Shown: one piece after another, positions 47,023 to 49,547 of the stretch | Position numbering within the stretch: the stretch's first letter is position 1 | Layout: each line of letters opens with the position of its first letter | NCBI RefSeq assembly: GCF_030158815.1 | Contig: NZ_BPFZ01000013.1 | Coordinates: 1 to 64,000, forward strand | Source of the DNA: Candidatus Phycosocius spiralis | GTDB taxonomy: Bacteria > Pseudomonadota > Alphaproteobacteria > Caulobacterales > Aquidulcibacteraceae | Length of the DNA: 64,000 bases | Reading direction: 5' to 3' | The notes under the pieces: generated by a model | What the model was told of the DNA's origin: nothing | What the model saw: only the letters and a program-made list of their open reading frames with translations | Database searches by the model: none | Made by a program: the position numbers and the translations under genes

Positions 47023-47931
47023 ATGACAGTCCATAGTATAAGCCTCTCAGCCCATGGCTTTGAACTTGAAGTTGCACCGGAGGCTGGCGGCGGAATAGCG
47101 GGCTTGAGCTGGTATGGCTATCCTTTGTTGCGACCTGCAATCGAAGGTGCGGTTGCATCAGCTGACCCGCTTGGCCTGTCCTGCTTCCCGATGACCCCTT
47201 ATGTCAGCCGAATTGTCGATGGCGTCTTCACTTGGGGGGGCGTTAGGACGGCCATACCCCCCAATATGGCGGGCGGGTCACATCCCTTGCACGGCATTGG
47301 CTGGCGTAACCCTTGGCGCGTACTAGCGCACAGCGACAGTTTTCTTGAGATTGAATTGCATCATTTTGGCGATATCTCTTGGCCTTGGGCATTTATAACC
47401 CGTCAGCTGTTTCATCTGTTGCCCGATGCGTTCGAGTTGACACTTAGTGTGGAAAGTTTGGACCCACGCCCATTCCCTGCCTCTTTGGGGCCACACCCTT
47501 ATTTTGTATCCGATGCAGCCACACTTCAGATTTGTGCCGAAAGCTTGTGGGAAACCACTGGTGAGGCGTTACCCAGCCACACAGCTCGCCCACCCGCGAT
47601 CGACCAGTTGTATCGATCGGTCAAAGTTACAGAGCTTGATCTGGACCATTGTTTTGAAGGGTGGAATGGGAGGGCGCAGATCGACTGGCCAAGTCACGGC
47701 TTGATCTTAGAGGCTAATCTATGGGTCGATGAGACCCCCTCGCCGTGCACAAGGCTGCAACTTTATACCCCTCCTAGGGCAGGTTTTTTTTGTCTTGAGC
47801 CTGTTACCGCGCGTGCAGTGGCCTTCACCACTTCCAACCCAAAAGAATTGGGGGTCATAGAGTTAGAGCAGCAAAAGCTTAGTATTGTCACAAGAATAGT
47901 GCCATTCATGAAGGTGGGTCCAACGACTTAG
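47023..47931 (+). CDS. Aldose 1-epimerase family protein
   Basis: 302 residues of the galactose mutarotase-like fold. Markers: H-P-L-H-G-I-G-W (active-site His), L-G-P-H-P-Y-F with the second His, and a C-terminal catalytic Glu in F-C-L-E-P-V-T. It likely interconverts alpha and beta anomers of glucose or a glucose phosphate, feeding glk or zwf with the right anomer. Last gene of the operon, 8 bp after pyk. Confidence 0.88.
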   Translation: MTVHSISLSAHGFELEVAPEAGGGIAGLSWYGYPLLRPAIEGAVASADPLGLSCFPMTPYVSRIVDGVFTWGGVRTAIPPNMAGGSHPLHGIGWRNPWRVLAHSDSFLEIELHHFGDISWPWAFITRQLFHLLPDAFELTLSVESLDPRPFPASLGPHPYFVSDAATLQICAESLWETTGEALPSHTARPPAIDQLYRSVKVTELDLDHCFEGWNGRAQIDWPSHGLILEANLWVDETPSPCTRLQLYTPPRAGFFCLEPVTARAVAFTTSNPKELGVIELEQQKLSIVTRIVPFMKVGPTT

Positions 47932-48145
47932 ACCACCATGGATCGGGTTAACAGACTTAAGTAACTGATCGAAAAAAGCACGTGAAAGATTAGATCAAAT
48001 CCTAAGGCATGGTGAGATGAGCTGCAAACACGGGTGAAGTCCTAACGCTTTGGAGGGCGCGACCAATAAGAATATGGCTAACACACATAAACGCACTAGA
48101 CTTTTGCCTAAAATTAGGGCGCTATAGGGGTCCCAATAGCAACTG

Positions 48146-48235
48146 AAAGGAGGTGATCCTATGTCTCATTGTCTGCGCCTAAGTGAAGTACGTATCAGGA
48201 TCACGTCGGAAGTGGGTGCATAAAGCGTCTCCTTT
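48146..48235 (+). ncRNA. Candidate SD-sequestering RNA element with leader ORF
   Basis: A 15-nt segment at 48146-48160 is complementary to the 16S 3' end and serves as the Shine-Dalgarno site for ATG 48161. Its two parts pair exactly with later segments: GTGATCCT (48153-48160) with AGGATCAC (48197-48204), and AAAGGAG (48146-48152) with CTCCTTT (48229-48235). The pairings are nested and could form at once, hiding the ribosome site. Such an arrangement suggests a switchable leader or a ribosome-contacting RNA; the partner and signal are unknown. Confidence 0.45.
48161..48223 (+). CDS. 20-aa leader peptide candidate
   Basis: ATG 48161 to TAA 48221. It is preceded at an ideal 7-nt spacing by AGGAGG within a longer stretch that matches the reverse complement of the 16S rRNA 3' tail. 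The peptide begins M-S-H-C-L-R-L-S-E-V-R-I and ends in E-V-G-A, with no run of one amino acid that would suggest attenuation by a charged tRNA. The ORF lies entirely within the loop of the predicted structure. No downstream gene follows closely; hrcA starts 238 bp later. Confidence 0.4.
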   Translation: MSHCLRLSEVRIRITSEVGA

Positions 48236-48270
48236 ACACAAGGAATGGACCCTTCACTGGTTTGGCAATG

Positions 48271-48300
48271 GAAAGGTCGCTGGGCAACTGGCGACCTTTC
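48271..48300 (+). ncRNA. 10-bp perfect hairpin following the leader ORF
   Basis: GAAAGGTCGC and GCGACCTTTC pair perfectly around the 10-nt loop TGGGCAACTG. No T-run follows on either strand, so it is not a plain intrinsic terminator. It may be the 3' stabilising stem of the small transcript beginning near 48140, or a protein-binding hairpin. The remaining parts of 47932-48461 show no convincing gene. Confidence 0.5.
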
Positions 48301-48376
48301 GTATGCAGTGCTTGCGTGAGGCGATTGGATTATCAAAAGAGAAAAACTTTTATTTATGCTTGAATTACCAATTTAG

Positions 48377-48407
48377 AACTTGCAAACTAACACCCTTAAG
48401 GCCTATT
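48377..48407 (+). promoter_or_regulatory. Weak RpoH-like promoter before hrcA
   Basis: CTTG and a CCTATTC block about 19 bp apart resemble the alphaproteobacterial heat-shock sigma-32 promoter (CTTG-N17/18-CYTATNT), with spacing slightly long. A perfect 10-bp palindrome TTAGCGCTAA lies further down at 48440-48449. No complete CIRCE element was found, although HrcA normally binds one. Confidence 0.25.
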
Positions 48408-48461
48408 CTATCAAGATTGAAAATTGCGACGTGCTTGACTTAGCGCTAAACACCTTTGATC

Positions 48462-49547
48462 ATGCAGACACCGCCCCATTTGACGACCCTCGCAGATCTT
48501 GATGCTCGTGCCCGTGAAATATTTCGCGACATTGTCGAAGCATATCTTGAATCGGGTGAGCCGGTGGGGTCGCGAACCTTGTCTAAGCGCGGCATTGGAC
48601 TATCCCCAGCCTCAATCCGCAATACCATGGCGGATTTGGCCGGGCTTGGTTTATTGGATGCACCTCATCTAAGTGCCGGTCGTACACCAACCCATACGGG
48701 GCTTCGCCTCTTTGTGGATGGCCTATTAGAAATTGGCGATTTAGGCAGCGAGGAAAAGGCCGAAATTGATTCTAGGCTCGCGGCTGCGGGATCGGACCTG
48801 TCGAGCGCGCTTTCAGAAGCGTCGCTTTTGTTATCTGGATTGGCAGGCGGGGCAGGGCTTGTCACCACACCAACACGTGAAAGCCCTGTCAAACATGTTG
48901 AGTTTGTGCTGGTAGGTCCAGGACAAATCCTTGTGGTGCTGGTTTTTGATGATGGGCAAGTTGAAAATCGCTTGGTCCAAATGCCAGTTGGTTTGACCCA
49001 ATCCCAGCTTCAAGAAAGCACAAACTTCCTCAATTTCCGTTTGAAAGGCCGCACCTTAACCGATGCATTATCGCAGGCCATAGAAGATGCGCGTCATGCA
49101 CAAGCCACCCTAGACGGGGTTGCGGCCAGCCTGATTGAAGCAGGTTTTGCCGAATGGTCAGGCGACGATCCGATGGCTGGTCGAAAACTAATTGTGCGTG
49201 GGCGTGCTAATCTACTGGCCAATAGCCAAGTGGTGGGCGATTTAGAGAGGGTGCGGATACTGTTTGATGATTTGGAGCGCAAACGCGATCTGATACATGT
49301 ACTCGATGCAGCACGGGATGCAGCTGCGGTTAAATTGTTTATTGGTGCAGAAAACCCCTTGTTCTCGATGTCGGGTTCGGCTCTTGTCGCCGCCCCTTAT
49401 AAGGATAGTCAAAGACGTGTGCTTGGCGCACTGGGTGTAATTGGACCAACCCGCTTGAATTATGCCCGCGTCATACCAATGGTAGATTATACAGCAAAGG
49501 TCGTAGGCCGCTTAATTGAGCGACGAGGCTTAAACTTGACGAAATGA
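48462..49547 (+). CDS. hrcA: Heat-inducible transcription repressor HrcA
   Basis: About 361 residues. The N-terminal winged helix has [26 protein letters not shown] and [12 protein letters not shown]. The central/C-terminal region has F-I-G-A-E-N-P and [20 protein letters not shown]. It represses groESL or dnaK through CIRCE elements and is activated by GroEL. The ATG at 48462 lacks a visible Shine-Dalgarno sequence. Followed by grpE after 10 bp, the usual hrcA-grpE pair. Confidence 0.96.

Follow-up and report, generated by a model that had tools for sequence, protein, structure and literature searches.

In the 64,000-nucleotide stretch of DNA analyzed in the present study (the window), an element at 48130-48300 of the forward strand, flanked by an aldose 1-epimerase gene on one side and by hrcA-grpE on the other, is best read as a free-standing small RNA gene. 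Sequence comparisons identify it with near certainty as a relative of the Rfam family RF01867 (CC2171), which we take from Rfam to be a Caulobacter sRNA of unknown function. The hrcA gene is co-directional and lies approximately 160 bp downstream of the RNA, and the window contains no tRNA or tmRNA gene. The features of the element are listed in Table 1.

Table 1. Positions of the features of the small RNA gene in the window.
Feature	Position	Strand	Basis and remarks
Putative promoter region, CTAGAC ... CTATAG	48096..48127	+	Position conserved in genus (upstream comparison); weak
Whole small RNA	48130..48300	+	RF01867 match 48137-48298; same-genus copies ~77% identical
Full-length Shine-Dalgarno (SD) sequence, GAAAGGAGGTGATCC	48145..48159	+	Sequence; complementary to alphaproteobacterial 16S 3' tail; conserved class-wide
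SD side of SD:anti-SD pairing, GTGATCCT	48153..48160	+	8 bp with 48197-48204
20-codon ORF, MSHCLRLSEVRIRITSEVGA	48161..48223 including stop	+	ATG 48161-48163, TAA 48221-48223; frame conserved in relatives; peptide selection undetected
P1 5' arm, CATTGTC (codons 3 to 5)	48167..48173	+	Covarying helix
Possible P1 extension, 5' arm, AGTGAAG	48182..48188	+	7 bp with 48252-48258; statistically weak
Anti-SD in ORF, AGGATCAC, 16S-tail mimic	48197..48204	+	Duplex -17.2 kcal/mol versus -9.1 shuffled
CTCCTTT, 7-bp partner of 48146-48152 (AAAGGAG)	48229..48235	+	Found in the sequence; retained inconsistently among same-genus relatives
Possible P1 extension, 3' arm, CTTCACT	48252..48258	+	7 bp with 48182-48188; statistically weak
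P1 3' arm, GGCAATG, abutting hairpin	48264..48270	+	Covarying helix
Terminator-type hairpin, 13 pairs, GCAA loop, without T-rich tail	48271..48300	+	Arms 48271-48283 with 48288-48300; fold; covarying in relatives

A scan of the whole window against Rfam at the gathering threshold returned no match. In a permissive scan of 47900-48500, positions 48137-48298 matched the RF01867 model over its full length (model 1-159) with E=4.1e-11 and 56.8 bits, which does not reach the family's gathering cut-off of 75 bits; the element is filed as a relative of RF01867 because it is linked to the family through members that pass the cut-off. The conserved 5' block of the family, GAAAGGAGGUGAUCC, and its start region (Rfam alignment and the invariant columns of our alignment A1) are present in the window element, as are the RF01867 helix CAUUGUC/GACAAUG, found as P1, and the terminal hairpin that follows it. 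Our own model R1 matched 48137-48313, a score that is not independent evidence because the R1 training set contains the window sequence.

The conserved block, together with the promoter-like upstream region of relatives, was used to estimate the 5' end of the RNA; a sigma-70 scan made no call at the putative promoter, and the folding z-score of the element was -2.2. The element is presumably transcribed in the source species. A family member in Mesorhizobium huakuii has been detected as an RNA-seq product (PMC5596092), and this table row and a table entry on Rfam 15 were the only mentions of CC2171 found in the open-access literature. Rfam treats the family as a non-coding sRNA, and neither an ORF nor a ribosome-related role for CC2171 was found there. 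Although the family is known, the full-length SD sequence, the ORF, and the pairing features described below appear to be unreported in the open-access literature.

Ribosome-binding site and pairings

A 15-nt match to the 16S 3' tail ahead of the ATG at 48161 had been recognized in an earlier, sequence-only reading of this DNA; the match holds, with its position corrected from 48146-48160 to 48145-48159. Complementarity was judged against the 16S tail CTGGATCACCTCCTTTCT, found exactly on the rrn copies of alphaproteobacterial plasmids. An exact 15-mer is expected by chance approximately 0.0001 times per 64 kb and 0.005 times per 2.5-Mb genome, and AAAGGAGGTGATCC occurs once in the source genome sequence. 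The predicted SD:16S duplex reaches -29.2 kcal/mol, versus a best value of -19.1 and a median of -10.95 for 60 other ORFs in the window. A very strong SD sequence may simply mean high translation.

When 385 genomes of the class were scanned for AAAGGAGGTGATCC followed by any start codon, blind to later codons, 44 matched, with at most one match per genome, and nearly all of the matches listed were of this element type; the reversed SD pattern yielded no match in the same 385 genomes. Members found with the covariance model carry small variants, mostly GGTGGTCC, in which pairing with the 16S tail is kept through a G-U pair. The named loci were mostly picked by the SD pattern and the invariance of this sequence among them is partly built in, a bias that is reduced, not removed, by the R1 search, the covariance-found members, and the codon-blind scan.

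The best-supported pairing is P1, which was absent from the sequence-only reading. The six bases from codon 3 have an exact downstream mate in 103 of 134 loci, versus 3.8 expected with shuffled targets, and this mate mostly sits immediately 5' of the terminal hairpin. The two arms vary together, as CATTGT/ACAATG, CATGGT/ACCATG, CATCGT/ACGATG, and CATAGT/ACTATG, and in divergent members as CATGAAT/ATTCATG, ATGAGATT/AATCTCAT, and CGAGATC/GATCTCG. In alignment A1, P1 and the hairpin together gave 97 double-change cells versus 27.9 after shuffling, a signal that was lost on sliding the partners and to which the hairpin contributes much; of the seven P1 pairs, three covary and four are invariant, and the rest of the evidence for P1 covariation comes from the sphingomonad and divergent members used for comparison. 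An extension of P1 (P1b), which reached p<=0.05 in 25 of 74 non-sphingomonad members but lacked significance in the window, is suggestive only.

Regarding the terminal hairpin, its presence had been noted correctly and its length underestimated, at 10 bp. It is followed by GTATGC in the window versus a T-rich tail in the eight same-genus relatives, and a terminator scan called no forward terminator at this position; most members have a strong, T-tailed hairpin.

Two exact blocks, of 8 and 7 bp, by which the SD sequence could pair with downstream segments had been proposed, and both are present in the sequence. The 7-bp AAAGGAG/CTCCTTT block was set aside, being inconsistently retained in the eight same-genus genomes, across which the 8-bp block persists in altered form. 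The pairing of the 8-bp block with the ORF is stronger in the window than the mean of dinucleotide shuffles (p about 0.01; Table 1), and an element resembling the 16S tail (CTGGATC..CCTC and variants) lies inside the ORF of non-sphingomonad members. Pairing at p<=0.05 against such shuffles was found in 48% of 73 non-sphingomonads and in 16% of 45 sphingomonads; sequestration of the ribosome-binding site is thus above chance in the former and weak in Sphingomonadales. Since the SD:anti-SD pairing crosses P1, the two together would form a pseudoknot.

Conservation in relatives had been set beforehand as one test of the proposed RNA element. Both structure and frame were found to be conserved, and the element thus came through this test, although mainly owing to P1, a pairing that had not been named. 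These results support an RNA element in which the ribosome-binding site takes part in the pairings.

Reading frame and what it may encode

The 20-codon ORF opened by the ATG at 48161 was confirmed by the sequence check. Among 129 loci, frame 0 contains no stop codon before codon 14; it terminates at codon 18 in almost all sphingomonads and at codons 19-33 in almost all others, and the two other frames have stops anywhere from codon 2 on. The distance from the start to an internal TGG element varies and is a multiple of three in 54 of 60 cases; insertions and deletions thus keep to the frame, an indication of real translation. Purifying selection on the peptide was undetected both by pN/pS, which was 1.02 from codon 6 onward and may also be close to 1 due to RNA-level constraint on all codon positions or to few informative sites, and by the counts of changes at codon positions 1, 2, and 3 (122, 122, and 104). 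Our central inference from these sequence comparisons is translation without a selected product, with ribosome binding and translation being kept and the peptide sequence not; the importance of the RNA probably lies in its binding and translation by ribosomes and not in the peptide produced.

An ordinary small mRNA, the structure of which only tunes the level of a peptide of 20-30 aa whose start (MSHC or MSHG) is functional, would account for the conserved frame and the strong SD sequence, as well as for the first four residues that are common within subfamilies and for the longer ORF resembling a signal peptide in some Azospirillum-type members. We consider this explanation unlikely, as the codons beyond codon 5 change equally at all three positions with the pN/pS value given above, and the shared start overlaps an arm of P1, with divergent members changing those residues along with P1.

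A similarly low probability is assigned to a classical base-pairing sRNA, perhaps Hfq-bound, the seed of which would be the SD-like stretch or a loop and the translation of which would be incidental or counter-regulatory, as in dual-function sRNAs. The description of the Caulobacter RNA as an sRNA in its Rfam name, the free-standing gene with its own hairpin, and the dual-function sRNAs known in Sinorhizobium meliloti (PMC10117765) are in accordance with this; however, in essentially all members the purine-rich stretch is spaced from a start codon as an SD sequence would be, with a conserved frame next to it, and the P1 arms vary freely in sequence and thus do not constitute a conserved seed.

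Relatives and their gene neighborhoods

Eight same-genus genomes carry a copy, and a pattern scan of a species-genome collection gave at least 120 matches; among the matches listed, all titles that name a group refer to Alphaproteobacteria, with at least five orders represented. Assigned from genus names, these orders are presumably Sphingomonadales, Hyphomicrobiales, Rhodospirillales with Acetobacteraceae, Azospirillum relatives, and Caulobacterales. Exact copies never exceed one per genome. The Rfam cut-off is exceeded by members from Brevundimonas, Bosea, Rhizobium, Methylobacterium, and others, whereas all four clearly sphingomonad loci scanned are missed by the RF01867 model at this cut-off. 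Model R1 matched 105 of the 385 class genomes at E<=0.01, some weakly, and short weak matches (approximately 40 nt) were not counted as convincing because a match to the SD sequence alone can come from antisense 16S. The relatives share a common plan of a full-length SD sequence, a start codon, P1 from codons 3-5 to the segment before the terminator, and an ORF that is mostly 18-26 codons long.

In the same genus, a convergent GNAT gene comes next, with an apparent lysK after it, and ilvE-, rnr-, or lysK-like genes are nearby in other lineages (named by eye from translations). No neighbor is conserved class-wide, clusters being found only within lineages, and a cis role is thus unlikely in general. 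The sequence-only reading had considered a leader role and guessed at a link to the heat-shock repressor gene; neither was borne out, since no downstream gene is common to the lineages and the RNA of relatives adjoins unrelated genes, and the hrcA link was rejected as a general role on the basis of synteny.

A cis-acting attenuator or leader, in which translation or a shortage of ribosomes alters termination at the hairpin and hence the expression of the downstream gene, here hrcA, is therefore improbable. The co-directional hrcA, the tailless hairpin, and the precedent of a translation-sensing leader with a paired ribosome-binding site in S. meliloti (PMC12218461) speak for it, but the next gene in the same genus is convergent and unrelated, downstream genes differ between lineages, and the hairpin of most members is strong and T-tailed. 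In the source species, the loss of the T-rich tail might permit read-through into hrcA. An origin by chance or as a remnant of antisense 16S DNA, suggested by an SD sequence that is an antisense copy of the 16S end, is refuted by the likeness stopping at the SD sequence, the class-wide conservation of the remainder with P1 mates and covariation, the codon-blind scan, and the low number of such 15-mers expected per genome.

A proposed mechanism and known systems

The reading that we prefer, at a probability of approximately one half, is a ribosome-gated mini-mRNA of the RF01867 family with a ribosome-related output. The free RNA would be closed, with P1 holding codons 3-5 against the 3' end, next to the hairpin, and the SD sequence paired with the mimic of the 16S tail within the ORF. 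A 30S subunit would compete through the 15-bp SD:anti-SD duplex, and its binding, followed by the translation of approximately 20 codons, would open both pairings until the RNA refolds; selection would act on ribosome binding and translation, not on the peptide. As its most likely output, the RNA may report on or absorb free 30S subunits engaged in initiation, and ribosome occupancy may alter its stability or its 3' part; conceivable outputs are thus 30S titration, RNA stability, or the release of a pairing region. Family membership, P1, the conserved frame, and the lack of detectable selection on the peptide are shown by comparison, and we infer translation itself, the switch, and its output. 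Sensing or titration of 30S subunits would fit the anatomy of the element. A more specific version is more doubtful: a widespread free-standing RNA, the sole conserved job of which is to be bound and translated, may serve as a dedicated probe or sponge of free 30S subunits, its P1/anti-SD lock closing when ribosomes are scarce and its peptide being disposable.

Regarding the switch logic, the closest experimentally studied analogue is the duf1127_1 uORF leader of S. meliloti, in which the ribosome-binding site pairs with codons near the start of a short ORF and the RNA sequence matters rather than the peptide; a role as a sensor of translation status and of ribosome availability has been proposed for this RNA, which is a 279-nt cis leader acting through Rho-dependent attenuation without an intrinsic terminator (PMC12218461). 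The comparison concerns how the element may work, not membership, and we claim no relationship in sequence. Pairing of the ribosome-binding site with codons of a short ORF was found in the window, whereas a conserved, regulated downstream gene was not found for the family of the window element.

If the titration model holds, the closest analogue is SprF1 of Staphylococcus aureus, which binds ribosomes by a purine-rich 5' sequence and dampens initiation (PMC8938821). This again is a likeness of action, resting here on predicted duplex energy, and not of membership; SprF1 is a type I antitoxin unrelated by sequence, for which a translated ORF or P1 is undescribed. The dual-function sRNA rnTrpL/peTrpL of S. 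meliloti is also a small transcript with a translated short ORF (PMC10117765), but has a functional peptide and a leaderless ORF, whereas the peptide of the window element is unconserved and its SD sequence is maximal.

In Caulobacter crescentus, most start codons lack an SD site (PMC4117421). If the proposed reading is correct, a class-wide, single-copy RNA with a 15-nt SD sequence and a translated, unselected peptide would serve as a dedicated connection between the supply of ribosomes and the cell, and RF01867, a family of unknown function, gains a concrete, testable hypothesis. The window element shares with RF01867 the SD block, P1, the terminal hairpin, and a full-length model match, but differs in its score and from a family entry that is non-coding and the model of which misses the sphingomonad loci tested; these findings suggest that the family should be broadened to take in the Sphingomonadales and the divergent members, and that it should cease to be regarded as simply non-coding.

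Several variant forms were observed among the relatives. The Sphingomonadales form, missed at the RF01867 cut-off, has CATGGTTCAGC with GCTGACCATG and an 18-codon MSHGSA ORF (L022, L031, L043, L100, and other sphingomonad loci), and some sphingomonad loci carry a hairpin within a longer 5' leader. Three of them (L031, L064, and L043) have a common, uncharacterized, co-directional lipoprotein-like gene upstream of the element, and a divergent tlyA-like rRNA methyltransferase gene is near some (named by eye). Azospirillum-type members (L062, L089, L101, L183, and L191) have the same full SD sequence and an ORF of 55-59 codons resembling a secretion signal peptide (MSHGASPVVAALFGLAALLTAGIANA...), which may have acquired a product. 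In a divergent subfamily (L011, L169, L178, L187, L188, L202, and L216), the ORFs follow an MSSE...EQP pattern near the end and share a GGAGCAGCC-like stretch.
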